Assembly (NCBI GenBank): GCA_015060765.1
Contig: SUXW01000008.1
Span: 62,001-126,000, forward strand
Reading direction: 5' to 3'
Origin: Bacteroides sp.
GTDB taxonomy: Bacteria > Bacteroidota > Bacteroidia > Bacteroidales > Bacteroidaceae
DNA: 64,000 nt
The notes beneath the pieces were generated by a model that ran no database searches, was not told where the DNA came from, and saw nothing but the letters and a program-made list of their open reading frames with translations. Shown one piece after another: positions 10,695 through 48,921 of this stretch (its first letter is position 1; the number at the start of each line of letters is the position of its first letter). Made by a program: the position numbers and the translations under genes.

Positions 10695-11761
10695 TGGCAT
10701 CACAGCTGTCTCTCTTTACAGAATATATACCTACGGTAGCAAAATTTCCTACTACCCGTTACCAAGGCAGTAAGCAGAAATTTGTAGATTGGATATGGGA
10801 TTGCGTTAAGGACATCCCTTTCCATTCGGCATTGGATGCATTCGGGGGTACGGGAAGTGTGTCTTTCCGTCTGAAGGAAGAAGGGAAGCAGGTTACATAC
10901 AACGATATTCTACCGTTCAACCACATCATAGGCAAGGCTTTGATTGAGAATGAAAAGACTTGTTTGGAAGATTTTGAAGTCGATGCATTGTTGAGAAAAG
11001 ATGCGGATATGGAATATCCAAATTTTATAGAACGGACGTTCAAGGACATATATTTCACGGACGAGGAGAATCGTTGGCTGGATGTGGTTTCTGCTAACAT
11101 CCGTCGTATGGAGAATCCTTACAAACAAGCTATTGCTTATTTTGCATTGTTCCAATCATGCATCATCAAGCGTCCTTACAACCTCTTTCACCGGAGAAAC
11201 CTTTATGTAAGATTGCAAGAAGTGGAACGGAGTTTTGGCAACAAGAAAACTTGGGACACTCCGTTTGAGGTACATTTCCGTAAGTTTGTGGAGGAAGCCA
11301 ACAATGCAGTATTCGACAATGGCGAGACTTGTCGTTCCATTAACCGCAACATCTTTGATGTGGAACCTGTCTATGATTTCGTTTACATCGATACTCCGTA
11401 TCTGAATGATAGTGGTATCGGTGTAGATTATGCGGACTTTTATCATTTCTTAAACGGACTCGTTGATTACGACAATTGGGGTACTCGCATAGACTACAAG
11501 AGTAAACATTTAAGGTTGTTTCGCCAACAGAATGTTTGGAACGATTCGAACACCATTCATCAGGCATTCGAGCAACTTTTTACACAATTCCGACATGCTA
11601 CAATGGCAATTTCTTATCGGTCAAACGGTATCCCTACAATCGATGAACTCGTCAAGACATTGGAACAATTGGGTAAAACTGTAAGAATCTACCAAAGTGG
11701 TGATATAAAATATGTATTGAGTACCAAACAATCGAACGAGGTTTTGATTGTGGCAAGTTGA
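10694..11761 (+). CDS. DNA adenine-N6 methyltransferase, cognate to the EcoRV-like enzyme
   Basis: A 355-residue alpha-type adenine methyltransferase of the D12/Dam-like class. The order of motifs is X (TRYQGSKQKF, about 21-30), I (DAFGGTGSVSF, 48-58) and IV (DTPY, 233-236, in place of the usual DPPY). It begins at the last base of the endonuclease stop codon, so the two are translationally linked, as expected of a type II R-M pair. Its job would be to protect the host's own sites from the EcoRV-like enzyme, by inference GATATC. The protein is longer than M.EcoRV (about 300 aa), and D-T-P-Y is an uncommon motif IV variant, so specificity needs direct evidence. Confidence 0.85.
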   Translation: MASQLSLFTEYIPTVAKFPTTRYQGSKQKFVDWIWDCVKDIPFHSALDAFGGTGSVSFRLKEEGKQVTYNDILPFNHIIGKALIENEKTCLEDFEVDALLRKDADMEYPNFIERTFKDIYFTDEENRWLDVVSANIRRMENPYKQAIAYFALFQSCIIKRPYNLFHRRNLYVRLQEVERSFGNKKTWDTPFEVHFRKFVEEANNAVFDNGETCRSINRNIFDVEPVYDFVYIDTPYLNDSGIGVDYADFYHFLNGLVDYDNWGTRIDYKSKHLRLFRQQNVWNDSNTIHQAFEQLFTQFRHATMAISYRSNGIPTIDELVKTLEQLGKTVRIYQSGDIKYVLSTKQSNEVLIVAS

Positions 11762-11850
11762 TTATAATTGGGTGCAAAACCTTAGACCCAATAGTAGTAG
11801 GAGACAAAATATTCATATCAGGTTTTAGAAGAATGTGTAACTAATACAAT

Positions 11851-12381
11851 TGAGATTATACAAGTAATGCCAGCGTTCAGGTAATGTTGTTTCGTAACAG
11901 ATTGGAAGTTTGGAATCCTGGCACATTGCCATATGGATTGACAGTACAGAAATTGCATGGTCCTCATAAATCTTTACCTGCTAATCCGCTACTTGCCGAC
12001 CCAATGTATTGGAATGGTTATATTGAAAAGGTGGGTACAGGAACAGAAGATATTATAAACAAATGTCGCGAATATGGATTAAAGACACCAGAATTCTATC
12101 AAGAAGAAGATTTTAGAGTTGTCATTTGGCGAGTAGACAACGAAGGAATTGATCCAAAGCGTTCCAACGATGATCCAACAGCGTTCCAAAGCGTTCCAAC
12201 GGACGAAGAGAAACTATTAGAGGCAATAAAGGAAACTCCGTCAATTTCAAGAGCAGAACTTTCTAGACGATTAAAAATTAGTGAACGTCAAGTTAGAAAG
12301 ATAACAGACCAATTACGAGAAAAAGGATTATTGATTCGTGAAGGCGGAAACTCAGGGAAATGGGTTATTAATAAGATATAG
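11851..12381 (+). pseudogene. C-terminal remnant of an AAA_4/AlbA_2-type ATP-binding transcriptional regulator
   Basis: An open frame from ATG 11884 gives 165 residues, but recognisable family sequence (DYTSNASVQV) already begins in frame at 11854, right after an in-frame TGA at 11851. The gene is therefore a 5'-truncated relic rather than a complete small protein. The visible parts are the C-terminal region of COG2865-type regulators (LFRNRLEVWNPGTLP, MYWNGYIEKVGTGTEDI) and a winged-HTH tail (ISRAELSRRLKISERQVRKI, 82 nt before the end). Such regulators normally have an N-terminal AlbA_2 domain, absent here. It lies 120 bp after the methyltransferase and is followed by a hairpin terminator. 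Residual DNA-binding activity is possible but unproven. Confidence 0.7.
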
Positions 12382-12386
12382 TTTAA

Positions 12387-12431
12387 AAAGTAGCCAAACT
12401 CTTTTGTTCAATCAAGGAATTTGGCTACTTT
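12387..12431 (+). terminator. Hairpin terminator after the R-M island genes
   Basis: A perfect 12-bp stem AAAGTAGCCAAA (12387-12398) / TTTGGCTACTTT (12420-12431) is followed by TTGTATT, only 6 bp past the remnant gene's stop codon. Confidence 0.7.
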
Positions 12432-12562
12432 TGTATTAAAGTTGTTTGACAAAGCATAACGCAGAAAATTGGTGCAATCTCAAAATTGCCAAATCGTTAC
12501 CAACAACTTTCTACTATAGCATTCGCTATTTGTGTATCAATCAGATACGGAATAATTGATTA

Positions 12563-12576
12563 TCTGTGGCAAAGAT
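12563..12576. repeat. Right copy of 14-bp direct repeat bracketing the R-M island (att-like)
   Basis: Identical to 9516-9529 (CTGTGGCAAAGATA). The distance between copies is 3.05 kb and covers exactly the endonuclease, methyltransferase and broken regulator. A small palindrome GTATC-AATCA-GATAC lies just left of it (12532-12546). Confidence 0.5.
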
Positions 12577-12609
12577 AACACATTCAGTATAAATCACTAT
12601 ACATGGGAT

Positions 12610-13506
12610 TTACCGTTTATGCTGTACAATTCTGGCTCCGGCAGGAACATCTTCTGTTACCCAAATGTTACCTCCTACCGTGGCTCCCTTGCCGATGGTT
12701 ACCCGTCCTAAGATGGTGGCATTGGAATAGACAATGACATCGTCCTCCAGAATAGGGTGGCGGGGGATGCCTTTGATGGGGTTGCCGTTTTCGTCCAACG
12801 GGAAGCTTTTGGCACCAAGAGTTACACCTTGATATAGCTTTACGTTATTGCCGATGATGCAAGTGGCTCCAATGACTACACCCGTACCGTGGTCGATGGT
12901 AAAATGATGACCGATCTGTGCGCCGGGGTGAATGTCGATACCCGTTTCGGAGTGTGCCATTTCTGTAATGATACGGGGGATGAGTGGTACGCCGAGTATC
13001 AGTAGTTCGTGGGCAATACGATAATTGCTGATAGCACGAATGGCGGGATAGCAGCTGATGATTTCACCGAAACAGGTGGCGGCAGGGTCGCCGTAATAGG
13101 CGGCCTCTACATCGGTGGCAAGGATGCGACGTAGTTCGGATAGTTTGGAAATGAACCGGGCGGCCAGTAGGGCTGCGGTTTCCCGACACGGTTCTTCATT
13201 GATTTTTAATCCATTGTTCTCTTGCCCGAAACAGAGGCCTGCCTGAATCTGCTCGATCAAGAGGTTGTAAAGACTTTCCACATTCACTCCAATGTGATAG
13301 GGGATGGTGTGCTTGTTGACGGTGGAATTTCCGAAATAGCCGGGAAACAAGATGGCACGTGCCAGTTCCACAATCTGTCGCAAGGAAGTGGAGGATGGCA
13401 GGGGGGTACCTTCCTTGTGTTGTTGGAACAAACCTTTGTACGACTGGCTGTCGGATAGTTCATCGACGGCTTTTGTCAGGATGTGGGAATAGTCAAATGA
13501 ATTCAT
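12610..13506 (-). CDS. cysE: Serine O-acetyltransferase
   Basis: A 298-residue acetyltransferase that makes O-acetylserine from serine and acetyl-CoA for cysteine synthesis in the cytoplasm. The N-terminal half is helical (ALLAARFISKLSELRRILATD). The C-terminal half is a left-handed beta-helix of hexapeptide repeats (IDIHPGAQIGHHFTIDHGTG, then GVVIGATCIIGNNVKLYQGV and GRVTIGKGATVGGNIWV). The active-site region contains DHGTGVVIG. The length corresponds to the longer EpsC/SatA-like Bacteroidetes form. No sulphur gene flanks it. Its promoter is probably the TATTTTTG box just upstream. Confidence 0.92.
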   Translation of the reverse strand: MNSFDYSHILTKAVDELSDSQSYKGLFQQHKEGTPLPSSTSLRQIVELARAILFPGYFGNSTVNKHTIPYHIGVNVESLYNLLIEQIQAGLCFGQENNGLKINEEPCRETAALLAARFISKLSELRRILATDVEAAYYGDPAATCFGEIISCYPAIRAISNYRIAHELLILGVPLIPRIITEMAHSETGIDIHPGAQIGHHFTIDHGTGVVIGATCIIGNNVKLYQGVTLGAKSFPLDENGNPIKGIPRHPILEDDVIVYSNATILGRVTIGKGATVGGNIWVTEDVPAGARIVQHKR

Positions 13507-31224: not shown

Positions 31225-31283
31225 TACGACGTTTTACAAAGCATAAAAGGCTTTATTAGTTTTATTTACATTTCGTATTGTAT

Positions 31284-33263
31284 ATGATGAGAAATCTGTT
31301 TGCTTTTTTAGTGTTAGTATGTATAACACCCATTGTTTCCGCGCAATCTATTCCGATGGTAGAAATCCCTTCGGGAAGTTTCTATATGGGTTCTCTCGGG
31401 TTGGAGGAAAACTATGACGAAGCCCCCATGCATCGGGTGCATATCAGTCGGCCTTTCTTGATGAGCCGTACGGAAATCACCAATGCGCAATACGAAGAAT
31501 TCTGTCCCGAACACAAGGAATTGCGGGGTAAATATGGTTTTTCTACCGATGATGATGAACCGGTGGTATTGGTGAGTCACGATGAGGCCATGGCCTTTTG
31601 CCGATGGCTATCAGCCAAGGAAGGGAAAACCTATCGCCTTCCTACCGAGGCCGAATGGGAATATGCTTGCAGAGCCGGCACCATGTGGAAGTTCTACATG
31701 GACGACAAGTTGCCTGCTGTTTATCATCGCAATCAGGAAATCGTATCCGAACTGAAACCCGTAAAACTGAATGTGGCACAAACGCCTGCCAATCCGTGGG
31801 GTTTGTACGACATGTGCGGGAATGTAGAGGAATGGTGCTTGGATTGGTACGGGCCTTATGTGGATGGCGAACAGACGGATCCGGTAGGTTATGCCGAGGG
31901 TATGTGTCGGGTAACTCGTGGAGGAAGCCACAATACTCCTACCGACTATCTGCGTTGTAGCAACCGGTTGGCTATGTTACCGGGCGATAAAAGTGTGATG
32001 ATAGGTTTCCGAATTGTACAGGCGGAATACCCTTCTACTGCTCCTTTGCAAAGAGAAGTGGTGTCTGAATCTATCCAGCAAAAACCATGGAAATGGGAAA
32101 CCGTATCGAAAGACCAACCGATATTCCATGCTCCACAAGTATTTGTCAAAGAACCTTTGGAAGGTAGCAAGACGCCTTTCTATCCGCATAACCACCAACC
32201 GGCCATCACATGGTGTGAGAATGGTGACTTGTTGGCCATTTGGTTCTCTACTAAAGAAGAGAAAGGTCGCGAAATGATTGTACTAACTTCCCGTCTCAAA
32301 GCCGGTAGCAACAAATGGGAAGAAGCCAAGCTTTTCTATCATGTACCTGACCGCAACCTGACGGGCTCGGCTCTTTATCACGATGGGAAAGGTACACTTT
32401 ACCATATTAATGGGGTGGAACAAGCCGGACGTTGGCGTAATCTGATGCTGACGCTTCGTACCAGTACCGACAACGGACAGACATGGACCCAGCCTCGTAT
32501 CATTGCTCCCGAACACACCATGCGCCATCAAGTCATTGCCGGCACCTTCGTGACTCGTGAGGGATGGATGATTCAGCCTTGCGATGCTACTCCTTCGGCT
32601 TCGGGAGGTACGGCTATTCATATCAGCAAAGATAAGGGACAAACGTGGACAGACCCTTGGGACGGTCGGCCTTCAGAGTATGTACAAGGGGGAAAAGGAA
32701 CCACTATTGCCGGTATTCATGCCGGAGTGGTACAACTGAAAGACGGTCGCCTGATGGCTTTGGGTCGCAAGAACAACATCAAGGATAAGGACGGACGCGA
32801 GCGTATGCCAATGAGTATATCCGATGATATGGGTAAGACATGGACCTATTCGGCCTCGGAATTCCCGCCATTGGAAGGTCATCAACGCCTGGTGCTCACC
32901 CGTTTGAATGAAGGTCCGCTGCTTTTTGTATCGTTTACCGACCATCCCTATCGTACTCCAGCGAGTGAACGTGGCTTGCTCTTTACCGATAAGGATGGGA
33001 AAACCTTCCGTGGATATGGACTTTATGCTGCCCTCTCCTTCGACGAAGGAAAGACTTGGCCGGTAAAGCGACTGATAACCGATGGAGAATACCGTTTGCT
33101 GAATGGTGGAGCATGGACCCAATTCTTTGAGATGGATGCCACTCATGCCGAGCCTCGTGGTTATTTGGCTTGCACTCAAACGCCCGACAACATGATTCAT
33201 CTCATCTCAAGTAGATTGCACTATCGGTTTAATTTGGCTTGGTTGATGGGGAAATCCAAGTAA
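31284..33263 (+). CDS. Secreted fusion: formylglycine-generating-enzyme-like (SUMF1) domain plus BNR/sialidase-like propeller
   Basis: A 659-residue exported protein with a signal peptide ending at VSAQ (about residue 19). Residues about 22-250 form an FGE-sulfatase (SUMF1) fold: MVEIPSGSFYMGS, EITNAQYEEF, YRLPTEAEWEYACRAGT, GLYDMCGNVEEWC and VTRGGSHNTP. The paired active-site cysteines of true FGE are not in their expected place after RGGS. Residues about 270-655 are sialidase-like, with four Asp-box motifs (STDNGQTWT, SKDKGQTWT, SDDMGKTWT, SFDEGKTWP). The protein may bind or cut a sialylated or sulfated glycan, but an active neuraminidase is not proven. The ATG at 31284 is chosen over the TTG at 31278. 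Confidence 0.82.
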   Translation: MMRNLFAFLVLVCITPIVSAQSIPMVEIPSGSFYMGSLGLEENYDEAPMHRVHISRPFLMSRTEITNAQYEEFCPEHKELRGKYGFSTDDDEPVVLVSHDEAMAFCRWLSAKEGKTYRLPTEAEWEYACRAGTMWKFYMDDKLPAVYHRNQEIVSELKPVKLNVAQTPANPWGLYDMCGNVEEWCLDWYGPYVDGEQTDPVGYAEGMCRVTRGGSHNTPTDYLRCSNRLAMLPGDKSVMIGFRIVQAEYPSTAPLQREVVSESIQQKPWKWETVSKDQPIFHAPQVFVKEPLEGSKTPFYPHNHQPAITWCENGDLLAIWFSTKEEKGREMIVLTSRLKAGSNKWEEAKLFYHVPDRNLTGSALYHDGKGTLYHINGVEQAGRWRNLMLTLRTSTDNGQTWTQPRIIAPEHTMRHQVIAGTFVTREGWMIQPCDATPSASGGTAIHISKDKGQTWTDPWDGRPSEYVQGGKGTTIAGIHAGVVQLKDGRLMALGRKNNIKDKDGRERMPMSISDDMGKTWTYSASEFPPLEGHQRLVLTRLNEGPLLFVSFTDHPYRTPASERGLLFTDKDGKTFRGYGLYAALSFDEGKTWPVKRLITDGEYRLLNGGAWTQFFEMDATHAEPRGYLACTQTPDNMIHLISSRLHYRFNLAWLMGKSK

Positions 33264-38786: not shown

Positions 38787-40610
38787 ATGAAAAAGAGACT
38801 CGTTTATATTATAGGATATTTCTTGCTCGTGCTTCTGTTGTTCATTTCCCAAAAGCCGTTGTTTATGTGCTACAACGGAGCTGCGGAGAAAGGAATGGGC
38901 TTGAGCGACTATGGGCAAGTAATTCTCCATGGAGCTAGTTTGGACGCTACTACAGCCGGATATTTGGTTGCTTTTCCTTTTTTGTTGGTACTGGCAAGTA
39001 TTTGGTTGAAGAAATTTCCGTTGAGAAGAATCTTAACTCCTTATTATGTTTTGGTATCTCTTCTTATTTCCATTGTATTTGTAGTGGACATGTCGCTCTA
39101 TGCCTTTTGGGGATTCAAACTCGACGCTTCTGTTTTTCTGTATTTGGATTCGCCCCAAGAAGCCATGGCCAGTGTCTCTACAGGTTTTATCTTGCTTCGG
39201 ATAGTTGCCATCCTGATTTTGGCAGCTTGCTACATTGGGTTGATGCTGAAAGTTACACCGAAGCGTCTGGATGCCGTGTCGAAGAAGGTGGTAAGCACGA
39301 TGTTGATGTTGTTGTTGGGCGGTGTACTGTTTATTGTCATAAGAGGAGGAGTAAGAGAATCGACAGCCAATGTGGGACAGGTTTATTTCAGTAATGATCA
39401 ATTCTTGAATCATTCAGCAGTGAATCCAGATTTCAGTTTGTTGTCTTCTATGGGCAAGTCGAAAAATTTTGCTTCAGAATTCAATTTCTTCAGTGAAGAA
39501 AAAAGGAAGGATTTGTTCCAAGGACTTTATTCCGTAGAAGATGGAGATAGTATCGTGAGCGTGCTGAATACTAAACGGCCAAATATTCTGATTATTTTGT
39601 TGGAAGGTATGGGTGGAGTTTTTGTGGAACCGTTGGGCGGGTTACCAGATGTAACTCCAAACTTGAACCGTTTATCGGAAGAAGGAGTGTTTTTTACCCA
39701 ATGCTATGCCAATAGTTACCGGACCGACCGAGGAGTGGTATGTGCATTGAGTGGATATTTAGGATTGCCTACTGCTTCGGTCATGAAACTTCCGACCAAG
39801 AGTCGGACACTTCCTGCTATCTCCGAAGAACTGGCTAAGGTCGGCTATGCCACCGATTTTATATATGGAGGTGATATAAACTTCACCAACATGAAAAGCT
39901 ATTTATTGAGCAAAGGGTATCAGAAATTGACGGCAGATACAGATTTCTCGTTGACCGAACAGGCAAGCAATGCTTGGGGAGTGAATGATGACATTACCTT
40001 TGAATATCTGTATCAGCAGTTGAAAGACCGGGAGGGAGGTCCATGGATGACCACTTTTCTTACTTTGAGCAGTCATGAACCTTTTGAAGTGCCTTATAAT
40101 CGTTTGGAAGAACAGATTCCAAATGCTTTTGCCTTTACAGACGATTGCTTGGGTAAATTTATTGATAAATTGAAACAGACACCGATGTGGAAAGACCTAT
40201 TGGTTATCTGTGTACCCGATCATGGTTCCCGTTATCCTAAGGAATATGTAGACAAAGGAGGAGAATTTTCGCATATCCCTATGTTATGGTTAGGAGGTGC
40301 GGTAGGCCGCGTACTTGAAGTGAATGAAATCATGAATCAGACTGACTTGGCGGCTACGTTGCTGGGACAATTGGGGCTAGATCATTCCATGTTCACGTTC
40401 AGCCGAAATGTACTGGGTAGTAATTATACTTACCCTTTTGCTTTTCATTGTTACGGAGGAGGCTTTGCTTTCCGTGATAGTACGGGGGTAAGCGTATATG
40501 ATACCAAAGCCGACCGAGTGTCTTATGAAGAACCTGCTGTAAGTGCGGAACGGATTGAAAAGGGAAAGGCTATATTGCAAAGTGTTTATGATGATTTGGG
40601 AAACCGGTAA
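38787..40610 (+). CDS. LtaS-like membrane phosphotransferase/sulfatase-fold protein
   Basis: A 607-residue protein with about five N-terminal TM helices (1-200) and a large periplasmic alkaline-phosphatase/sulfatase-fold domain. The core begins PNILIILLEGMGG, then has the nucleophile Thr313 in SYRTDRGVV; LSSHEPFEVP and VPDHGSRYP supply metal ligands. This layout is shared with lipoteichoic acid synthase and with phosphoglycerol and phosphoethanolamine transferases. In a Gram-negative, likely products are phosphoglycerol or phosphoethanolamine groups on LOS or other envelope glycans. It is followed after 15 bp by a TagB/TagF-like gene, which favours a polyol-phosphate donor. Substrate is inferred only. 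Confidence 0.83.
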   Translation: MKKRLVYIIGYFLLVLLLFISQKPLFMCYNGAAEKGMGLSDYGQVILHGASLDATTAGYLVAFPFLLVLASIWLKKFPLRRILTPYYVLVSLLISIVFVVDMSLYAFWGFKLDASVFLYLDSPQEAMASVSTGFILLRIVAILILAACYIGLMLKVTPKRLDAVSKKVVSTMLMLLLGGVLFIVIRGGVRESTANVGQVYFSNDQFLNHSAVNPDFSLLSSMGKSKNFASEFNFFSEEKRKDLFQGLYSVEDGDSIVSVLNTKRPNILIILLEGMGGVFVEPLGGLPDVTPNLNRLSEEGVFFTQCYANSYRTDRGVVCALSGYLGLPTASVMKLPTKSRTLPAISEELAKVGYATDFIYGGDINFTNMKSYLLSKGYQKLTADTDFSLTEQASNAWGVNDDITFEYLYQQLKDREGGPWMTTFLTLSSHEPFEVPYNRLEEQIPNAFAFTDDCLGKFIDKLKQTPMWKDLLVICVPDHGSRYPKEYVDKGGEFSHIPMLWLGGAVGRVLEVNEIMNQTDLAATLLGQLGLDHSMFTFSRNVLGSNYTYPFAFHCYGGGFAFRDSTGVSVYDTKADRVSYEEPAVSAERIEKGKAILQSVYDDLGNR

Positions 40611-40625
40611 TTAAAAAGTAGAGCC

Positions 40626-41675
40626 ATGCGTATTGTATTGTTTTGTGAAAATAAGTATGCTGTCGATATCTTACAGCCTATTCAGGTAGAAGCTTTGGCG
40701 GAAGGTGGAAATGAGGTGTTGTGGTATGTTCATCGGAAAAAGATTCCCGATTTTCCGTTGAAGAATGAAACCAACTGGACTAACAATATGCAGGAGGTAT
40801 ATGACTTTTCACCGGAGGCTATCTTTGTACCCGGCAATATTGTACCGTATTATCTACCGGGAGTGAAGATTCAAATATTCCACGGTTATGCAGGTGAGAA
40901 GAAGGGACATTGGGTGATACGTCATTATTTCGACACTTATTTCACGCAAGGACCTTTCTTTACTGAAGGATTCCGAAAACTGGCAGCAATTCATCGGGAT
41001 TTTGAGGTGCTAGAAACAGGATGGCCTCGACAGGATTGGGTAAAGGCAAATCTTCATACCTTTGATGAGGAACGAAAAAGGTTGTTGGAGAAATCCGGAA
41101 GAAAGCATTTGGTACTATATGCGCCTACTTTTTCTCCTTCTCTCACGTCCCTGCCTATCATGAAGGATGCATTGGTGGAACTGACACGCAAAAGGGATGT
41201 CTTGGTGGTTGTCAAACTGCATCCGCTTACCCGTCAGGAATGGGTAGACGAATACAGACAATTGGCTGGGGAACATGAATATATTCTTTGGATGGACGAT
41301 TTTTCGGTGGCCAAGTATCAGTTGATGGCCGATGTGATGATCAGTGATACTTCATCTACCATCTATGAGTTTCTACTGAAAGACAAGCCGGTAATCACTT
41401 ACCGTGCTTCGGCGGGCAAGATTTATTGGAAGAATATAGAAGATACGGATGAACTTTGCACTGCCTTTGATGAGGTTCTACAAGATGGAGAAGGAACTCG
41501 CCTGCGGCAATGGGTGATTGACAATTATGATCCATATTTGGACGGTAAGGTGGCTCATCGAATGCTCGAAGGGGCAAGGGATTACATTCGCCGTCATGGG
41601 GTGCCGCGCAAACGTCAATTGAATCTTTGGAGGAAATATACAAGTATCAAGACTTTTGGTTGGATTCGGAAATAA
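40626..41675 (+). CDS. CDP-glycerol glycerophosphotransferase-like enzyme (TagB/TagF family)
   Basis: A 349-residue protein of the TagB/TagF (Glyphos_transf) fold without a large N-terminal extension. Family motifs include QIFHGYAGEKKGHW (catalytic His region), LYAPTFSPS, VVVKLHPLTRQEW, and the donor-site MISDTSSTIYEFLLKDKPVI. Such enzymes transfer glycerol- or ribitol-phosphate from a CDP-polyol to a glycan acceptor at the cytoplasmic membrane face. The following gene encodes a cytidylyltransferase of the matching type. A true poly-polyol-phosphate chain is not proven; a single decoration is equally possible. Confidence 0.83.
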   Translation: MRIVLFCENKYAVDILQPIQVEALAEGGNEVLWYVHRKKIPDFPLKNETNWTNNMQEVYDFSPEAIFVPGNIVPYYLPGVKIQIFHGYAGEKKGHWVIRHYFDTYFTQGPFFTEGFRKLAAIHRDFEVLETGWPRQDWVKANLHTFDEERKRLLEKSGRKHLVLYAPTFSPSLTSLPIMKDALVELTRKRDVLVVVKLHPLTRQEWVDEYRQLAGEHEYILWMDDFSVAKYQLMADVMISDTSSTIYEFLLKDKPVITYRASAGKIYWKNIEDTDELCTAFDEVLQDGEGTRLRQWVIDNYDPYLDGKVAHRMLEGARDYIRRHGVPRKRQLNLWRKYTSIKTFGWIRK

Positions 41676-41683
41676 GGAAGTGT

Positions 41684-43030
41684 ATGAAGAAGGTTATTAC
41701 ATATGGAACTTATGATTTGTTGCACGAGGGGCATGTCAACCTTTTGCGTAGGGCCAAAGCGTTGGGCGATTATCTGATTGTGGGGGTAACCAACGATAAC
41801 TTTGACCGAGAAAGGGGTAAATTGAATGTACGGAACAATGTGCTGGAAAGGGTGGAAGCCGTTAAGGCTTTAGGTATTGCCGACCAGATTATTATAGAAG
41901 ACTATGTGGGACAGAAGATAGATGACATTCAGAAATATGGAGTGGACATCTTTACGGTAGGGTCGGATTGGACCGGTCATTTCGATTATCTCAATGAATA
42001 TTGTAAAGTGGTTTACCTTCCTCGTACAGAAGGGATCTCTTCGACACTGCTCAGGAATGAATCTCAGCATGTCATTAAATTGGGGATGGTTGGTTTGGGA
42101 CGTATTGCCAGTCGTTTTGTCTTGGAAACGGCATACGTCAGTGGAATAGATATTGTAACGGTTTATGATAATAATCCGGAGATTTCTGGACGGTTTGTAC
42201 GCGAAACGGGTATCTCTGATGTCAGTTGGAATTTTGATGATTTATTGAAGAAAGTGGATGCGGTGTATATAGCCACTCCTCATTTGTCTCATTATGAGTA
42301 TGCCAAGAAAGCACTATCGGGTGGAAAGCATGTGTTGTGTGAGACTCCATTGGTGTTGGAAACTGCCCAAGCTGAAGAATTGTATGCGTTAGCCAAAAAG
42401 AACCGGTTGGTTTTAATGGAAGCTAATAAGACGGCACATTGTCCTGCTTTCAATCATTTGATGGTGATGATAAAGAGTGGTGTAATCGGGGAAGTGGTGG
42501 ATGTGGAAGCTTCTCTTTCCAAATTGTTGGCCGACAAGAGTCTTCGAGAATTCGATAAAAAACAGGCCGGAGGGTCGATGTACGAATTGGCTTCTTATCC
42601 CTTGTTGCCAATTATCAAGTTGTTGGGTACTGACTATCAAGATTTCCGTATCTATTCTCGAATGTCGGGTGGCATAGATGTATTTACGAAAGGGGTGTTG
42701 TCTTATCCCAATGCGGTTTGTTCGTTTAAGCTTGGATTAGGAGTAAAAACCGAAGGAAACCTGATTATATCGGGTACTAAGGGATATGCCTATGTTCCTT
42801 CTCCTTGGTGGAAAACAGATTATTTTGAACTTCGATACGAAGACCAAAACGAGAATAAGAAATTTTTCTATAAATGGGATGGTGCTGGATTGCGATATGA
42901 AATACAGGAATTTGTTTCCTGCATCTATAATGGACGGATTAATTCAGTCCGTTTACGCCCTGTGGAAAGTATTGCCATGGCAAGGATTATGCAACAGTTT
43001 ACAGAACGTGTAAATTTGGTGGAAATATGA
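41684..43030 (+). CDS. Fusion of glycerol-3-phosphate cytidylyltransferase (TagD-like) and Gfo/Idh/MocA-type domain
   Basis: A 448-residue two-domain protein. Residues 1-130 are a GCT-type nucleotidyltransferase with HxGH (HEGH, 14-17), TYGTYDLLHEGH at the start and the RTEGISSTLLRNE motif. Residues about 134-448 are a Gfo/Idh/MocA Rossmann oxidoreductase (GMVGLGRIAS, AVYIATPHLSH), but the usual EKP catalytic motif reads ETP (Glu220-Thr221-Pro222). Likely product: a CDP-polyol. The second domain may make or bind the polyol precursor. ATG 41684 is preferred to the ATG at 41627, which lies inside the upstream gene. It overlaps the next gene by 4 bp. Confidence 0.82.
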   Translation: MKKVITYGTYDLLHEGHVNLLRRAKALGDYLIVGVTNDNFDRERGKLNVRNNVLERVEAVKALGIADQIIIEDYVGQKIDDIQKYGVDIFTVGSDWTGHFDYLNEYCKVVYLPRTEGISSTLLRNESQHVIKLGMVGLGRIASRFVLETAYVSGIDIVTVYDNNPEISGRFVRETGISDVSWNFDDLLKKVDAVYIATPHLSHYEYAKKALSGGKHVLCETPLVLETAQAEELYALAKKNRLVLMEANKTAHCPAFNHLMVMIKSGVIGEVVDVEASLSKLLADKSLREFDKKQAGGSMYELASYPLLPIIKLLGTDYQDFRIYSRMSGGIDVFTKGVLSYPNAVCSFKLGLGVKTEGNLIISGTKGYAYVPSPWWKTDYFELRYEDQNENKKFFYKWDGAGLRYEIQEFVSCIYNGRINSVRLRPVESIAMARIMQQFTERVNLVEI

Positions 43031-43746
43031 AATATGCGATTGTTACGGGTGCAACGAAAGGCATTGGATTGGGAATTGCCCGGATGTTGTTGGACGAAGG
43101 GTATTTTGTGACTCTTACTTATGCTCATGATGAGAATGCTGCTACTTTGTGTAGGGAGCAATTATCGGAATGGACTGGCTCTTTCGAAATTCTGAAGGTT
43201 GACCAAGCAGACAAGGAGGCGATGAAGGTTTTTGCCCAAGAGATGAGGATGAAGCCATCTATCGATTGTTTGGTATGCAACACGGGGACAACCTTGCGCA
43301 AGAGTTTGTCGGAAACTACAGACGAGGATTGGGAACGGGTGATGCAAGTGAATGTGAATAGTAATGTTTATTTGGTACGCGATCTGTTTGACAAGTTTTC
43401 GATGGATTCCAGAATCGTCTTTATTGGTTCCTTGATGGCTATCAGGCCACATGCTACTTCTTTGGCCTATGGAGTTACCAAAGCTGCGCTTCATGCATTG
43501 GCCTTGAACTTAGTGAAATGTTTTGAAGGTACAGGGACAACGGTCAATGTTATTGCGCCAGGTTTTGTAGAAACGGAATGGCAAAAGGATAAACCGCAGG
43601 AAATAAGGGAGAATATTTATAAGAAGACGGCTATCAAACGGTTTGCATCAATCGATGAAATAGCCGATGCGGTGCGTTTCTGCATCCGCAACTCTTTTGT
43701 CAATGGTAGTGTGATTGAAATAAGTGGCGGGTATAGTTTTAAATGA
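43027..43746 (+). CDS. Short-chain dehydrogenase/reductase (FabG-like)
   Basis: A 239-residue classical SDR. The NAD(P) motif TGATKGIG (8-15) is clear and the catalytic Ser135, Tyr148 and Lys152 are in GSLMAI and AYGVTK. The C-terminal SGGYSFK is typical of the 3-oxoacyl reductase-like group, but the position between a CDP-polyol enzyme and a glycosyltransferase argues for a polyol or sugar dehydrogenase. ATGA overlap with the upstream fusion gene suggests translational coupling. It could supply a reduced polyol phosphate or ketose for CDP-activation. Confidence 0.86.
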   Translation: MKYAIVTGATKGIGLGIARMLLDEGYFVTLTYAHDENAATLCREQLSEWTGSFEILKVDQADKEAMKVFAQEMRMKPSIDCLVCNTGTTLRKSLSETTDEDWERVMQVNVNSNVYLVRDLFDKFSMDSRIVFIGSLMAIRPHATSLAYGVTKAALHALALNLVKCFEGTGTTVNVIAPGFVETEWQKDKPQEIRENIYKKTAIKRFASIDEIADAVRFCIRNSFVNGSVIEISGGYSFK

Positions 43747-43753
43747 AACATTT

Positions 43754-44815
43754 ATGAAGAAGATAAACAAAATATTGATTATCCGTTTCCGACAAATGGG
43801 GGATGCCATATTGACTACCGCTTTGTGTAGTACAATGAAACGTAGTTTCCCGGATGCGGAAATTCATTTGGTCTTGAATGCGGGTCTTGTTCCTGCTTTG
43901 GAAGGGCATCCCGATATTGATCGCATTATTCCTTTCAGAAAGGAGGACAATAAACCGTTTGGGGCATATTTGAAAAAAGTGTGGAAGGTGGTACACGATG
44001 AGCGCTATGATGTGATTGTTGATATGCGTGCTACGGTGCGGACATTGTTATTCTCCTTGTTTTCTCTTCATACACCTTATCGTATTGGACGGAAGAAAGG
44101 GTATGCCGGATTCTTGTTGAATCATCAGGTAGATGTGTATGACAAGAAGCTGAAGGGGGATATGGTGCAACGCAATTTGCTGTATGCTACCTTTTTAGAG
44201 AAGGAAGCTCCCATTCAGTATACTAAAGATTTCAAGTTGTATTTGAAAAAAGGTGAGAAGGAAGAGTTTCGACGTTATATGGAACAAGAAGGTATTGATT
44301 TTACTCGTCCTGTCATGTTGGTGGGAGTTACGACCAAACTCCCTCACAAGAAGTGGGAGGAAGGAATGATGAAACAAGTGATTCAACGGATTCTAGAACG
44401 CTATAAGAATTTACAGTTAATATTTAATTACGCACCGGGGGCTGAAGAAGCGGATGCAAGGCGGATGTTTGAAGCATTGGGTAGACCAACTGCTGTGAAG
44501 ATAGAAGTACAAGCTCGTTCTCTGCGTCAGTTGATGGCATTATGTAGCAACTGTTCGTTTTATTTTGGCAATGAAGGTGGTGCTCGTCACATGGTGCAGG
44601 CTTTGGGCATACCTTCGTATTCCATTTACTCACCTAAGGTAAACAAATCCATTTGGCTCCCTTCCAATGAAGTACTGGCAGAAGGAATCTGTCCAGATGA
44701 TGTGCTCCCTTCCAATGAAACAGAAGGAATGGATTATTGGGAACATTTCGGCCTGATAACTCCGAAGGTGGTATGCAGCAAATTGTTTCCGCTCCTCGAC
44801 AACTATTTGTCATAG
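43754..44815 (+). CDS. Glycosyltransferase family 9 (heptosyltransferase-like)
   Basis: A 353-residue GT9 with the N-terminal KINKILIIRFRQMGDAIL and acceptor-side signatures. The C-terminal SNCSFYFGNEGGARHMVQAL is the family donor-binding region (equivalent to the D-S-G-x-x-H motif, here NEGGARH). GT9 enzymes add heptose or related sugars to the LPS inner core on the cytoplasmic face. The ATG at 43754 follows the SDR stop by 7 bp; an earlier start at 43724 would run inside the SDR. Converges with the GT2 gene, overlapping its stop by 6 bp. Confidence 0.87.
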   Translation: MKKINKILIIRFRQMGDAILTTALCSTMKRSFPDAEIHLVLNAGLVPALEGHPDIDRIIPFRKEDNKPFGAYLKKVWKVVHDERYDVIVDMRATVRTLLFSLFSLHTPYRIGRKKGYAGFLLNHQVDVYDKKLKGDMVQRNLLYATFLEKEAPIQYTKDFKLYLKKGEKEEFRRYMEQEGIDFTRPVMLVGVTTKLPHKKWEEGMMKQVIQRILERYKNLQLIFNYAPGAEEADARRMFEALGRPTAVKIEVQARSLRQLMALCSNCSFYFGNEGGARHMVQALGIPSYSIYSPKVNKSIWLPSNEVLAEGICPDDVLPSNETEGMDYWEHFGLITPKVVCSKLFPLLDNYLS

Positions 44816-45604
44816 GTATTGGTCTACCCCTTTTTGAGCTCTGGTCCGATGTTCAGACAGGGTATTGTTGAGTATGGAACGGTTCTTTTGAGCGTTTTCC
44901 GTACTTTTTTCAGGATGGTAGAGATGAACGGCCGGAGCCAACAGCTTGGCGTTTTTGCGCTTGAGACCGGTATTGAACAAGCGTTGTACAAATTCGGAAT
45001 CCTCGAATCCCCATCCTTCGAAGACTTCTTCGAATCCGTTGACTTGGATGAAGTCTGTTTTCCAGAAAGCCATGTGGCAGCTGCGAGCATTCTTCAGTCC
45101 GTCGTGCCCTTTGATGAGGGGGTGTAGGAAGGGAATTCGCAACATAACCAACCGTCTGCTCAATCCCGAAGAAAAGAAATGGAAAGCGGAATTACCTTCT
45201 TTGATATGGGATAAAGTGGCTTGTTTCTTTAATCGGGCTCTACTGCCGGTGACAAACTGTCCTTCTTTCATTAGGGAAAGATGATCTTGAATGAAGTGGG
45301 ATGTAACGACTATATCTCCGTCGATGATGATGATATAGGGAGCAGTGGAACGGGCAATAGCCATGTTCCTGGATTTTGCTACCCTAAAACCTTCGTCGGG
45401 AATCCATGAATGGATGACGGGTATGGGGAAACTTTTTTGATACCGCTCAATCAGTTGGGCTGTCTCTTGTGTGGAGCCGTCGTCGGCTATAATCACTTCT
45501 TTAGGATATATGGTTTGCTTATTGATACTATCCAAGACCAACCCCAGGAAATCGGGGTTGTTATAGGTTGTTATGATTAATGATACTTGTTCTGAAATTT
45601 TCAT
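44810..45604 (-). CDS. Glycosyltransferase family 2
   Basis: A 264-residue GT-A enzyme. It shows SLIITTYNNPDFLGLVLDSI, VIIADDGSTQETAQLI and the DxD-type IIIIDGDIV. The C-terminal QVNGFEEVFEGWGFEDSEFV is the galactosyltransferase-like second domain found in chondroitin-type GT2 proteins. The sugar is unknown. It is the last gene of the minus arm, after the LpxL-like gene by 11 bp, so an LOS sugar addition is likely. Confidence 0.88.
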   Translation of the reverse strand: MKISEQVSLIITTYNNPDFLGLVLDSINKQTIYPKEVIIADDGSTQETAQLIERYQKSFPIPVIHSWIPDEGFRVAKSRNMAIARSTAPYIIIIDGDIVVTSHFIQDHLSLMKEGQFVTGSRARLKKQATLSHIKEGNSAFHFFSSGLSRRLVMLRIPFLHPLIKGHDGLKNARSCHMAFWKTDFIQVNGFEEVFEGWGFEDSEFVQRLFNTGLKRKNAKLLAPAVHLYHPEKSTENAQKNRSILNNTLSEHRTRAQKGVDQYL

Positions 45605-45615
45605 GTGCAGGGTCT

Positions 45616-46524
45616 TTATGAGTTCTGTTGTCTTCTAATCCATTCTTCCTTAGTACGTTTCCAACGTTTATGGCTCCATAACCAATATGATGGATTGTCT
45701 GATATCATTTTCTCCAATAGCTGGGTGTAAAGGTCGGTTAGTTCATAGTCGGGAACAGATTTCGCTTGCTCTGCTAATTGCTTGAATTCGCAATGGTAAT
45801 ACCCTCTTCTCAAACGCTTTACATCAGCATAATAGATAAGAGCATCTACTTGCTTGCCTATCCGTTCTGTTCCGATAAATACGGGTGTCTCTCTGTGGAA
45901 GAAAGGTGTCCAGTGGTGGATACTGTTCCATTTGGGGGCTTGGTCGGAGATGAAACCGATAATGGTCTTCTGTTTGCTTCGCTTGAGTTCGATAATACGG
46001 CGAAGTGTTTCTTTCATGGCAATACATTCACCTCCAAATTGGTTGCGCAGGCGCAGGAAAAGGCGGTCCATTGCTTTGTTGTATAGCGGATGATAAATTT
46101 GTCCACACAATACATCTTCGGGTACCCAATAAGGAAGGGAGGCAATCCATTCCCAATTGCAGTAATGGCCTAAATAGACGAAACAGAAAGTCTTGTCTTC
46201 TGCTGCCATCTTTTGGACAATCTCTTCTATCCCCCCAAAGGCCATCCGTCTTTTCAATTGCTTTTTCGACATGGAAAGGAGTTTGATGGTTTCCATGATA
46301 TAATCGCAGAAGAAATGATAAAATTTCTTTTCTATCTGCACAATTTCTTTCTTGTCTTTTTCGGGAAAGGAATTGTTAAGGTTAGTTCGTACCACTTTCC
46401 TTCTATAACGGAAAAGGTAATAGAGGGGGTAGTATAACAAATCGGAAAATACATACAAGATGCATAGTGGTAACAATGAAAGCAGGTACCACATGCTGAA
46501 TAGAATATAATACATGATTCTCAT
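45616..46524 (-). CDS. LpxL/HtrB-like lipid A acyltransferase
   Basis: A 302-residue membrane-associated acyltransferase with an N-terminal hydrophobic helix (MYYILFSMWYLLSLLPLCIL) and the active-site motif GHYCNWEW (HxxxxE/D type). Later motifs GFISDQAPKWNS and TPVFIGTERIGK match the lauroyl/myristoyl acyltransferase family. It adds a secondary acyl chain to lipid A. ATG 46524 overlaps the kinase stop by 4 bp (ATGA); the frame is open further upstream to 46779 but that would overlap the kinase gene by 256 bp and lacks the helix. The operon context supports lipid A work. Confidence 0.88.
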   Translation of the reverse strand: MRIMYYILFSMWYLLSLLPLCILYVFSDLLYYPLYYLFRYRRKVVRTNLNNSFPEKDKKEIVQIEKKFYHFFCDYIMETIKLLSMSKKQLKRRMAFGGIEEIVQKMAAEDKTFCFVYLGHYCNWEWIASLPYWVPEDVLCGQIYHPLYNKAMDRLFLRLRNQFGGECIAMKETLRRIIELKRSKQKTIIGFISDQAPKWNSIHHWTPFFHRETPVFIGTERIGKQVDALIYYADVKRLRRGYYHCEFKQLAEQAKSVPDYELTDLYTQLLEKMISDNPSYWLWSHKRWKRTKEEWIRRQQNS

Positions 46525-47276
46525 TTTCGGTCTTTTTTGATTCCTAATAATGCTTGGAGGCGCCGTTTCTTTTGCACCTTCGATTCGAATGCTGATAAAT
46601 AGCGGAAAACAAGTGAGGTACATTCCTTTTCGGACCATTCTCTTGCTCGGGCATATTTTCTGACAACATAGTCCATCAAGGCTTTGTTGTGGGTGAGCCG
46701 TTTTAAATTGTCCATGCATTCCTGCATGGAGGGAGTGGGGGTAAAACGGGAACGATTGGTATCTATTAGGGTGAAACAATACTTTCCGTCTGCTACGCGA
46801 TAGAGTACGTTGTTCAGGTTGATGTCTCCGTGTAGAATGCCTTTTTGATGAAGGTTGGCCAACAACAAGGAAAGATGGTCGGCCAATTCCTGGTCGAAAT
46901 CCTCTCTATTCAATATGGGAAGTAAAGGTTTGTCATCACATGCGGTCGAAACGAAGTAACCGTCGGAAAACAGACCGTGTATCTTAATTTCGATATAAGC
47001 TATTTCGTGGGGAGTTTGGAAACCTCGTTCGCGGAAAATTCCGGCATACAAATAGGCGCGTTCAGCTTTGCTCTTTTTAAAGAATGTATAGGCAATGCGT
47101 TGGATGAGGTTGGGACGTTTGAACTTCTTTACAATCAGAATTTCTTTTCCCAATTGGAAACGTTTTACCTTGTTACGCTTGTCGTAAAGCATTTCACCTT
47201 CCCGAGAGTATATGTGCGGAAGGCTTCGGATGAACTCCGTCAGACTTGCGTAATGGGGATGGACAACTACCTTCAT
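46521..47276 (-). CDS. LPS core kinase, Kdo-kinase/InaA-like
   Basis: A 251-residue protein kinase-like enzyme. The ATP-site lysine lies in EILIVKKFKR, the catalytic loop is HGDINLNNVLYR and the metal-binding motif is TLIDTNRSRF. This is the RfaP/KdkA/InaA family that phosphorylates heptose or Kdo in the inner core. Bacteroides LOS is known to carry phosphorylated Kdo, so a Kdo kinase is the best inference. It overlaps the GT9 gene by 4 bp upstream and the LpxL-like gene by 4 bp downstream, an unusually tight block of three. Confidence 0.85.
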   Translation of the reverse strand: MKVVVHPHYASLTEFIRSLPHIYSREGEMLYDKRNKVKRFQLGKEILIVKKFKRPNLIQRIAYTFFKKSKAERAYLYAGIFRERGFQTPHEIAYIEIKIHGLFSDGYFVSTACDDKPLLPILNREDFDQELADHLSLLLANLHQKGILHGDINLNNVLYRVADGKYCFTLIDTNRSRFTPTPSMQECMDNLKRLTHNKALMDYVVRKYARAREWSEKECTSLVFRYLSAFESKVQKKRRLQALLGIKKDRK

Positions 47277-48304
47277 GGAAGGACTTTTTCAATGTGTTCA
47301 ACAATCATTTTTGGGGTAATGCTCTGTAGACAAGCATAATCGTTACGGAAGCAGGGCTTGTTACCGAAGATGGAACAAGGACGGCAGGGTAGATCCACTT
47401 GTATGGCATTGCTTTCATTTTGTTTCCAACCCATGAAACCGGCATAAGGATGGGTGGCTCCCCATATGGATACTACTGGGATACCTACCATTGAGGCTAT
47501 ATGCATATTGCTGGAATCCATGCTCAGCATAACATCCAATTGGCTTATCAATGCTAACTCGGTGTCCCAATTCAGTTTGCTGGCAATGCAGATAGTGGAG
47601 GGAAATTGCTTTTCCCAATTTGACAGTATATCGGTTTCCTTTTTACCGCCTCCAAACAAGAATAGTTTCAAGTCGCTTTTCCGGGATAAGATACCGAGCA
47701 CTTCCTTCATCTTTTCTAATGGGTAGATTTTGCCTTTATGCGTGGCAAAGGGTGCAATACCTATCCAAATGTCTTTCCCCTTTTCACCCGTTAATGGTAG
47801 AAGGGAAGAGATGTCTCCTTTCTGGTTGCCATAGATAGAGGTGAACTCGAGTCGGATAGGAAAGCCTAATTGTTCCAGTACGTGTGCGTATCTTTGGAAA
47901 GAGGATTTTAGCTGCACCAAGGTTTTACCCTGTTGTCTTATTAAAGCCTTTTTCTCTCTTCTTCCTTTGTTGATATGGGCTACTTTCTTACCTTCCAGTC
48001 TAAAGAGGGTTCTTAGATACATGGTACGAAGTACATCGTGGAAGTCGACAATGTAGTCAAAATGGCATGCTCTTAATTCTTTGTACAATCTGTTTAATCC
48101 GCCGAATCCTTTGTGCCTTTCTTTTTCGTCCATTCCCCAAAACGATACATTTTCGGGCATATACCCGAAAAATGCAGACATACCCTTTCTACTCAAAACC
48201 GTGATATGGTGTTGAGGGTATTGTACGGCCAGGGAATGGATGACTGGAATTGTCATGGCTACATCACCGATGGCCGATAGCCGGATGACTAAAATCTTTG
48301 CCAT
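47273..48304 (-). CDS. Glycosyltransferase family 9 (heptosyltransferase-like), second copy
   Basis: A 343-residue GT9 starting ILVIRLSAIGDVAMTIPVIH. The C-terminal donor-site motif is LSMDSSNMHIASMVGIPVVS followed by SIWGATHPYAG, so this copy keeps the classical D-S-x-x-M/H pattern better than the copy at 43754. It also shows the ending-side cysteines of LPS heptosyltransferases (RPCSIFGNKPC). Likely role: first or second core heptose or similar sugar. Gene order DUF4254, GT9, kinase, LpxL-like, GT2 makes a compact LOS operon. Confidence 0.89.
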   Translation of the reverse strand: MAKILVIRLSAIGDVAMTIPVIHSLAVQYPQHHITVLSRKGMSAFFGYMPENVSFWGMDEKERHKGFGGLNRLYKELRACHFDYIVDFHDVLRTMYLRTLFRLEGKKVAHINKGRREKKALIRQQGKTLVQLKSSFQRYAHVLEQLGFPIRLEFTSIYGNQKGDISSLLPLTGEKGKDIWIGIAPFATHKGKIYPLEKMKEVLGILSRKSDLKLFLFGGGKKETDILSNWEKQFPSTICIASKLNWDTELALISQLDVMLSMDSSNMHIASMVGIPVVSIWGATHPYAGFMGWKQNESNAIQVDLPCRPCSIFGNKPCFRNDYACLQSITPKMIVEHIEKVLP

Positions 48305-48315
48305 GGCAAGGCCAT

Positions 48316-48921
48316 TTATTTTTTACCGTAGAGGACTGGATTTAAGTTAGGATCGTTGTACATTTTCATTTGTTTGTACACCTTCATGTACTTACGTCCT
48401 GCCTCGATATCTTCTATCAATTGGTCGATGGCGGAAGAAAGGTCCTTTTGCTGCTCAAGCAATACGTTCAGTTTGTTTTCGCATTGGGCGTGATGCTCCG
48501 GAGTTGTGTCCGTACGTTCCACTTCCTGACGCATGTGGTATATCTTCAGAGCTAAGATAGATAATCGGTCGATGGCCCAAGCCGGACTTTCTGTATTGAT
48601 AGTGGCGTCTGTCTGCACCTTTACATCCTTGTATTTGTCGAGGAAATAGCTGTCGATTAGTTCAACTAAATCGGTACGGTCTTGATTGGACTTATCGATG
48701 CGACGCTTTAAAGTCAGTGCTTCTACTGGGTCAATGTTCGGGTCGCGGATAATGTCTTCGAAATGCCATTGTACGGTATCAATCCAGTTCTTCAAATACA
48801 GATAATATTCGATGCTTCTCAATTCATAAGGGTTGTTGATAGGAGTATCTACATTGTCAGTCTTATGATAGTCGTTGATGACCTGTACAAAAATGGGATT
48901 GCAAAGTTCAGTAAATGTCAT
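48316..48921 (-). CDS. DUF4254 protein
   Basis: A 201-residue soluble, helical protein of the DUF4254 family (ELRSIEYYLYLKNWIDTVQW, ALTLKRRIDKSNQDRTDLVE). The family is Bacteroidetes-typical, is found beside LPS glycosyltransferases and has no known biochemical activity. It is the first gene of the minus arm, 11 bp before the GT9. The promoter TAGATTTG is at 48950-48957, 28 bp upstream. Function is inferred only from its neighbours. Confidence 0.85.
   Translation of the reverse strand: MTFTELCNPIFVQVINDYHKTDNVDTPINNPYELRSIEYYLYLKNWIDTVQWHFEDIIRDPNIDPVEALTLKRRIDKSNQDRTDLVELIDSYFLDKYKDVKVQTDATINTESPAWAIDRLSILALKIYHMRQEVERTDTTPEHHAQCENKLNVLLEQQKDLSSAIDQLIEDIEAGRKYMKVYKQMKMYNDPNLNPVLYGKK

Follow-up and report, generated by a model that had tools for sequence, protein, structure and literature searches.

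A candidate TagB-FUS-SDR cassette for alditol-phosphate decoration of the lipooligosaccharide core in Bacteroides

What donor would a TagB/TarL-like transferase use, and on which acceptor, when its gene faces the lipooligosaccharide (LOS) core genes of a Gram-negative bacterium? The question is raised by a stretch of 64,000 nt from Bacteroides sp. (assembly GCA_015060765.1, contig SUXW01000008.1, positions 62,001-126,000 of the forward strand), which we call the window and which comes from a draft genome of 2.89 Mb that is 84% complete. Three adjacent genes at 40626-43746 encode the transferase (TagB), a fusion of a TagD-type cytidylyltransferase with a Gfo/Idh domain (FUS), and a short-chain dehydrogenase/reductase (SDR). 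We hold the chances to be about even that the three form a cytoplasmic cassette decorating the LOS core with an alditol phosphate. Domains were assigned by scoring open reading frames (ORFs) with Pfam and NCBIfam profiles; loci and genomes used for comparison carry L and G numbers, respectively.

The fusion protein, its lost lysine and its partner genes

FUS (41684..43030, plus strand; PF01467 64.1 bits, PF01408 83.7 bits) carries its cytidylyltransferase at about residues 1-126 and the Gfo/Idh domain at about 130-440. Its start was moved, the ATG at 41684, where most homologues begin, being the most likely one, and not 41627 (MKKVITYGTYDL). The solved proteins nearest to the N-terminal 126 residues are TarD and TagD, and those nearest to the rest are Gfo/Idh proteins (e.g. 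3e9m, dimeric dihydrodiol dehydrogenase). The initial annotation read the fusion as a CDP-polyol-type cytidylyltransferase; on closer comparison it is no typical glycerol-3-phosphate cytidylyltransferase. TIGR01518 is the best family for FUS, yet the score (116.7 bits) lies below the cut-off of 165.4. The motifs HxGH and RTxGISTT are given for this enzyme in PMC8262930; RYVDEVI, Lys44 and Lys46 were compared as further features of it. HxGH and the equivalents of Arg113 and Lys46 of TagD are kept in 102/102 FUS, and the second motif reads RTxG[IV]SST in most of those that lack the Gfo/Idh lysine described below, its G being often replaced in the clade that retains this lysine. RYVDEV is absent, Gly-x-[AV]-D standing at the place of RYVD. 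Three differences from TagD (numbered by counting on the FUS-TagD alignment) are fixed in 102/102 copies: Arg for Lys44, Gly for Arg63 and Ser for Thr117. Because FUS misses both the family cut-off and one of the motifs, a plain teichoic-type CDP-glycerol (CDP, cytidine diphosphate) is weakened as its product.

FUS belongs to a widespread family without a specific name, an annotated member being called 'adenylyltransferase/cytidyltransferase family protein'. Of 201 genomes of the taxonomic family, 32 encode full-length FUS (E < 1e-100), and a scan of genome contigs gave at least 573 relatives, of which the best 80 were kept, so that this is no full survey. Among these best 80 are records named Bacteroidales, Lachnospiraceae, Oscillospiraceae, Paenibacillus and Actinobacteria, and also Akkermansia, Treponema, Selenomonas and Fibrobacter, many of them metagenome bins. 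The genome of the window has one PF04464 protein and two LicD proteins. The TagD model matches twice there, each time within a FUS protein, and the FUS other than that of the cassette is encoded on contig C1, where a LicD gene adjoins it. A LicD or Glyphos-type transferase is found within 4 genes of 76/102 FUS.

In Gfo/Idh enzymes the lysine of the EKP motif is the catalytic residue. FUS of the window reads ETP, with Thr at position 221, and it keeps the GxG motif as GLGRIA and a PF01408 score above the cut-off. We compared 110 copies: 102 distinct FUS, with four duplicates counted once, for which partner genes were sought within 4 genes, and eight added loci (L052, L058, L070, L075, L094, L114, L135, L142), not screened for duplicates, for which they were sought within 4.5 kb. 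The lysine is intact in 36/110 and lost in 74/110. No SDR or aminotransferase adjoins 35 of the 36 intact copies, the remaining one being L125, and one of these enzymes is encoded beside 64 of the 74 lysine-less copies. Taken separately, the 102 divide into 34 with EKP (33 without a partner, 1 with) and 68 without the lysine (59 with a partner, 9 without), and the eight added loci into 2 EKP copies without a partner, 5 lysine-less copies with a class-V aminotransferase and 1 lysine-less copy without a partner. Because the profiles used to find SDRs and aminotransferases were made from genes neighbouring FUS in Bacteroidaceae loci, the search favours partners of that sort; at a laxer limit (E 1e-6), EKP-type FUS still lacked a partner within 4 genes, except in L125.

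The partners are of four kinds: two SDR types, a HisC-like class-I aminotransferase and a PhnW/AGT-like class-V aminotransferase, all scoring below or far below the cut-offs of named families. Relative to FUS, the SDR types occupy position +1 in 34/66 and +2 in 5/64, and the aminotransferases -1 in 13/67 and +1 in 5/66, with at most one partner at any other position. In the window, FUS and the SDR (43027..43746, plus strand) are an adjacent pair of cytidylyltransferase and NAD(P)-dependent reductase genes overlapping by 4 bp. The SDR, a predicted carbonyl reductase, has GxxxGIG and S...YGVTK, and had no match in the PDB at 1e-30. A loose active-site pattern was found in 21/21 of both SDR groups but fell on the wrong stretch in at least two of the second, and is used here for the window protein only. 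A phosphonate (2-aminoethylphosphonate) pathway was considered for the class-V aminotransferase and put aside, PhnW models matching far below their cut-offs; the search did not extend to phosphoenolpyruvate mutase.

The partner has been exchanged repeatedly on the FUS tree (a quick tree), where the starred branches require no fewer than 9 changes for SDR, 10 for SDRb and 5 for the class-V aminotransferase. Since unrelated reducing and aminating enzymes replace each other in one slot, these exchanges point to a shared carbonyl intermediate, which is the core of our interpretation. The Gfo/Idh domain has changed to different extents in the groups concerned. The EKP clade conserves 59 positions (each in at least 33/34 copies). 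Of these, 54 keep the same majority residue in the SDR group; the other five differ in the majority of the 40 SDR-type copies, Lys221 being the only one missing from all 40. In clade B, which goes with aminotransferases, 17 of the 59 are changed, including the GxG glycine. The ratio of mean identity in the nucleotide-binding half to that in the C-terminal half, 0.98 for the EKP clade, drops to 0.79 for the SDR group, 0.76 for clade B and 0.81 for the remaining aminotransferase group, so that the C-terminal half stays more constrained. We read the Gfo/Idh domain of the window as a platform for binding, its redox activity weak or absent, although, with GxG and Lys249 kept, it could still act.

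Several FUS loci have further features. Near full-length FUS (50-62% identity) is encoded by MT836586.1, MT837899.1 and MT837690.1, unannotated faecal contigs of 6-10 kb named 'Bacteriophage sp.', which may be bacterial DNA filed as phage. A protein of 843 residues directly precedes FUS in a Paenibacillus locus (L122:7457-9988); it had no Pfam match and nothing notable in the PDB. L128 and L134 also have a neighbour of similar size ahead of FUS. Two genes after the same FUS, in a cluster with LicD, lies a 768-residue fusion of a nucleoside triphosphate (NTP)-transferase with a serine hydroxymethyltransferase-like part (L122:12274-14580). In L136, the gene directly after FUS (11344-13152) encodes a Gfo/Idh domain that has kept EKP and is joined to a glycerophosphodiester phosphodiesterase domain. 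Finally, plasmid pRUMAL01 of Ruminococcus albus 7, a cultured type strain (L174), has a glycan cluster of LicD, class-V aminotransferase, FUS, LicD, GNAT and LicD, its FUS being of the type with a decayed Gfo/Idh domain; our guess is that the GNAT acetyltransferase gene fits an N-acylated amine.

TagB, its cassettes and the core locus

TagB (40626..41675, plus strand, 349 residues) matches Glyphos_transf (PF04464) with 74.4 bits against a gathering cut-off of 22.1, positions 154-361 of the 367 of the profile being aligned, and its nearest solved protein is TarL (E 1.9e-8). It falls below the NCBIfam cut-offs for TarL (31.7/1000 bits), TarF (25.7/550) and TarB (20.2/500). Residues invariant over 27 aligned rows include His86-Gly87, Lys92, His199-Pro200, Asp241 and Ser243, which we take to be the donor-site motifs of PF04464.

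A close homologue (E < 1e-100) is present in 22/201 genomes of the taxonomic family; 11 further genomes, outside these 22, have only a weak relative of about 30% identity. All 22 carry a cassette, 19 near TagB and 3 elsewhere. Within 7 kb of TagB, 10/22 have a class-V aminotransferase with a TagD-like protein of 160-169 residues, 3/22 a class-I aminotransferase with an NTP-transferase protein, 5/22 a class-V aminotransferase with FUS, and 1/22, the window, SDR with FUS; the remaining genomes (G101, G200, G067) have FUS with an adjoining SDR elsewhere. As the cassette beside TagB is thus of the aminotransferase kind in 18/22 genomes, the label 'polyol', which the initial annotation gave to the whole module, fits the SDR type only. 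On the TagB tree, which includes L101 as a distant relative on a very long branch, SDR-type genomes (window, L068, L146, L151, L153) are grouped with support 100/98; the labels 'SDR+FUS trans' (L146, L151, L153, L155) were assigned from the FUS surveys and later checked.

Within the genus, TagB occurs in 4/60 genomes and FUS in 8/60, and all 4 TagB genomes have FUS, an overlap that would have a chance of about 1e-4 among independent genomes, which these are not. All four are less than 90% complete, and TagB is found in 0/37 of the more complete ones. In G262, DUF4254-GT9 converges on TagB-FUS-SDR, which follows an LpxL-like gene. G242 has FUS-SDR between the kinase-like gene and the GT9 of the core run; a 103-residue piece of TagB closes the same contig, and a complete copy opens a second one. 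In G205, FUS, with SDR directly beside it, lies about 77 kb from TagB, and in G214 a class-I aminotransferase, an NTP transferase and LicD occupy the place after the LtaS-like gene. It is this gene content and order in genus relatives that makes TagB, FUS and SDR a recurring cassette.

The cassette is therefore TagB-FUS-SDR, 40626-43746, and its neighbours on either side, which the initial annotation had counted as members, are left out of it. The upstream gene (38787..40610, plus strand; PF00884, 112.5 bits) encodes an LtaS/OpgB-like membrane protein of the sulfatase fold, with VP1736 (3lxq) and then LtaP/LtaS as nearest solved proteins; with 37.1 bits against 970 it does not reach the cut-off of the NCBIfam LtaS equivalog and shares only the fold family. 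By homology it would presumably use phospholipid head groups rather than CDP donors. It is present in 20/24 genus genomes and 29/40 relatives, and it adjoins RNase H in L147, L149 and L150, whose fetched stretches hold no TagB; in L146, which has TagB, it is one gene away from RNase H. We set it aside as a part of the pathway because it is common in the genus (20/24) while TagB is rare (4/60). A second, divergent membrane protein of the LtaS/sulfatase fold, of about 640-660 residues and 21-26% identical to that of the window, lies near the first in L146 (6272-8251), L175 (9472-11397) and L176 (2812-4803). The downstream gene encodes a GT9 heptosyltransferase-like protein (43754..44815, plus strand; PF01075, 49.8 bits), whose start is more likely the ATG at 43754 than the GTG at 43724, a choice made without start-site evidence. 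It was dropped as a cassette member, not being adjacent to the cassette in L175 or L177.

Facing the cassette is a convergent minus-strand run at 44810-48921: a GT2 glycosyltransferase (44810..45604, by domain profile), an LpxL-like lipid A acyltransferase (45616..46527, PF03279), a Kdo-kinase-like protein (46521..47276, PF06293), a second GT9 heptosyltransferase-like protein (47273..48304, by domain profile) and a DUF4254 protein (48316..48921, PF14063), a marker of LOS-core loci. A Kdo-kinase-like or DUF4254 gene lies within 8 kb of TagB in 11/22 genomes; the genus members L175 and L177 have FUS-SDR inside the core run, and the cassette or TagB is in the LOS locus in the window, G262, G242 and G205. 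These arrangements support the recurrence, in LOS-core loci, of a predicted CDP-alditol-type donor enzyme together with a CDP-dependent-type transferase.

That part of the polyol-phosphate LOS module first proposed has consequently stood, as have the domains, order and strand read for the plus-strand run and the composition of the convergent core and lipid A run. The comparison of gene order across genomes that had been suggested returned TagB-FUS-SDR and the association with LOS-core genes, and not the LtaS-like gene or GT9. Gaps of 15 bp (LtaS-TagB), 8 bp (TagB-FUS) and -4 bp (FUS-SDR), taken from the coordinates, make a single transcription unit plausible. The five plus-strand genes have 41.6-43.6% GC, no different from the window (42.2%), and a foreign origin judged by composition was dropped. 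A promoter scan gave 21 sites against 23.0 in shuffled sequence, and terminator-like sites numbered 13 against 8.7; neither is used as evidence. Elsewhere in the window, a long ORF at 31278-33263 has, by eye, a formylglycine-enzyme-like N-terminal part and a sialidase-like C-terminal part.

Proposed pathway and competing explanations

From the domains and gene arrangements above we infer the reactions, the direction of evolution, the carbon skeleton and the acceptor as follows. A keto phosphate, at best guess dihydroxyacetone phosphate, would be reduced by the SDR, and the N-terminal domain of FUS would link the phosphorylated alcohol or ketone to cytidine monophosphate, before or after that reduction, to give a CDP-alditol. 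This might be CDP-glycerol, perhaps in a stereochemical form not obtainable from the housekeeping pool of glycerol-3-phosphate. TagB, acting in the cytoplasm, would then place the alditol phosphate on a core sugar of LOS that is yet to be exported. In a one-gene version the fused Gfo/Idh domain of FUS would do the redox step itself; in the lineage of the window this domain, having lost its catalytic lysine, would have passed the step to a separate, exchangeable gene. In relatives an aminotransferase in place of the SDR would yield an amino-alcohol phosphate, perhaps serinol phosphate. Our confidence differs from step to step: a CDP-alcohol donor is probably used on LOS, the SDR is somewhat better placed than not to be the enzyme that carries out the reduction, and glycerol as the alditol is a tentative choice that we put a little below an even chance.

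A number of observations speak against this scheme. The association between lysine loss and partner is strong by Fisher's test (p 2e-17, 102 FUS), which ignores kinship; the fairer measure is the FUS tree, a quick tree, on which the loss amounts to 2 changes and the independent-pairs test gives p = 1. With about one event of loss, counts do not prove that loss and partner are linked, and shared descent may account for the association. Ten lysine-less FUS are without a partner found. L040 and L099 among them are cut by a contig end, L099 keeping an aminotransferase fragment; L100 has an aminotransferase further off, L032 is the second copy in the window's own genome, and in L145 FUS reads ENP and a stand-alone EKP Gfo/Idh gene follows. 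L073, L074, L108 and L110 are unexplained, and in G053, from which L110 apparently comes, no SDR of the window type was found at E 1e-40. Conversely, L125 has EKP plus an aminotransferase, and L121, L136, L138 and L141 have EKP both in FUS and in a second, stand-alone Gfo/Idh. The TagB of L155 falls outside the SDR-type clade, and in 11/22 genomes neither a Kdo-kinase-like nor a DUF4254 gene lies within 8 kb of TagB. Ordinary glycerol-3-phosphate is, moreover, available to the cell, so that no reduction step is needed for plain CDP-glycerol.

In the simplest form of the reading first proposed, FUS is a glycerol-3-phosphate cytidylyltransferase making ordinary CDP-glycerol from sn-glycerol-3-phosphate, the Gfo/Idh domain and the SDR serving another step. 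TIGR01518 as best family, TagD and TarD as nearest solved proteins, and a glycerophosphodiesterase gene found close to FUS in L128 and, in L136, joined to a neighbouring Gfo/Idh all agree with it, but we consider it unlikely given the score below the family cut-off, the differences from TagD fixed in every copy and the SDR or aminotransferase adjoining most lysine-less copies. The scheme would otherwise be the same with a longer alditol (erythritol, ribitol, arabinitol or a hexitol) and a ketose phosphate as the ketone. Pathways to CDP-ribitol and CDP-glucitol do pair a cytidylyltransferase with a reductase, according to the available text of PMC10918830, the fixed differences from TagD allow another acceptor, and TarL, the nearest solved transferase, is a ribitol-phosphate polymerase. 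The N-domain of FUS, however, is TagD-like and not IspD-like as in those pathways, and the HisC-like and class-V partners suit small keto phosphates, an indirect argument; a longer alditol is accordingly a rather improbable choice.

The acceptor might be a capsule or another surface glycan, with the position in the LOS locus incidental. Most FUS genes stand among other glycan genes with LicD or Glyphos-type transferases, and FUS-SDR is far from TagB in G205; yet the cassette or TagB recurs in the LOS locus of four genus genomes and core genes are near TagB in half of the 22, so we regard a non-LOS acceptor as distinctly unlikely. A still active Gfo/Idh domain could oxidise CDP-glycerol, to be reduced by the SDR with inversion or aminated by the aminotransferase, as the 54/59 retained positions of the SDR group, GxG and Lys249 included, would allow. 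With the EKP lysine lost in 74/110, and the GxG glycine lost too in one clade that nevertheless adjoins an aminotransferase, its chance seems slim. Very unlikely, finally, is that the window cassette, like those of the relatives on our reading, transfers an amino-alcohol phosphate, be it phosphoethanolamine or serinol phosphate: its TagB is of the same family as that in aminotransferase loci, and phosphoethanolamine is known in a Bacteroidota core (PMC3342949, available text), but an SDR takes the aminotransferase place.

Alditol-phosphate transfer to the LOS core can be set within a wider picture that we regard as possible but doubtful. In LOS cores of Bacteroidaceae, one transferase family (TagB, or LicD instead) would work with interchangeable cassettes that reduce a common keto phosphate to an alditol phosphate or transaminate it to an amino-alcohol phosphate (e.g. 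serinol phosphate), a one-gene swap would flip the decoration between anionic and zwitterionic, and FUS would be a family of CDP-alcohol synthases whose reductase domain was disarmed when a single lysine was lost and kept as a substrate platform. The charge of core phosphate bears on immune recognition. If the picture is true, the gene at one slot would predict whether a strain carries alditol phosphate or amino-alcohol phosphate, and a function that can be tested would be assigned to the FUS family, whose records range from Bacteroidales to Lachnospiraceae and Actinobacteria.

Relation to known systems

CDP-alditol synthesis by a cytidylyltransferase and a reductase, and TagF-like enzymes in Gram-negatives, are known already (PMC10918830, PMC8262930, PMC5974469). 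A search of the open-access literature, with most subscription papers outside its scope, returned no report of the FUS fusion family, the lysine loss, the partner exchange or a CDP-alditol cassette for Bacteroides LOS. Bacteroides-type LOS or lipopolysaccharide is among the most abundant gut molecules (PMC5850320). The LOS cluster BT3362-BT3380 of B. thetaiotaomicron is, by description, like the core locus of the window in having heptosyltransferase-like and LPS-kinase genes, and it holds four tailoring enzymes of unclear role; in the available text it differs in that no CDP-alditol cassette is described (PMC5850320). For another member of the phylum, Capnocytophaga canimorsus, phosphoethanolamine is reported on Kdo and mannose of the core, partly cited as unpublished (PMC3342949).

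Teichoic-acid-like polymers are known from Gram-negative capsules (PMC5974469, PMC8262930). Cps3D and Cps7D of A. pleuropneumoniae are examples of PF04464-type transfer from a CDP-alditol in a Gram-negative (PMC8262930), from which the window differs in a TagB of 349 residues that has the C-terminal part of the profile only, a location in an LOS-core locus and no sign of a polymer. C. jejuni Cj1437 transaminates dihydroxyacetone phosphate to (S)-serinol phosphate (PMC11800397) and, by the reaction described, resembles the aminotransferase cassettes in that a three-carbon keto phosphate is transaminated for a surface glycan; it serves amide formation, however, and not a CDP donor route.

FUS shares with TagD and TarD (1coz, 2b7l) the fold of its N-domain and the CTP-binding motifs HxGH and RTxG[IV]S, and departs from them in Arg for Lys44, SST for STT, the absence of RYVDEV, the fused Gfo/Idh domain and a score below the cut-off. 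In C. jejuni, HS5.18 and HS5.17 between them form CDP-6-fructose and reduce it, by means of an SDR, to CDP-6-glucitol (PMC10918830). With these proteins and with TarIJ/Bcs1 (CDP-ribitol) the window has in common a cytidylyltransferase beside a reductase, the HS:5 reductase also being an SDR. Their cytidylyltransferases, however, belong to the IspD type (PF01128), and the reductase of HS:5 to PF01370, whereas the cassette of the window combines a TagD-type enzyme with a seemingly disarmed Gfo/Idh domain and an exchangeable partner.

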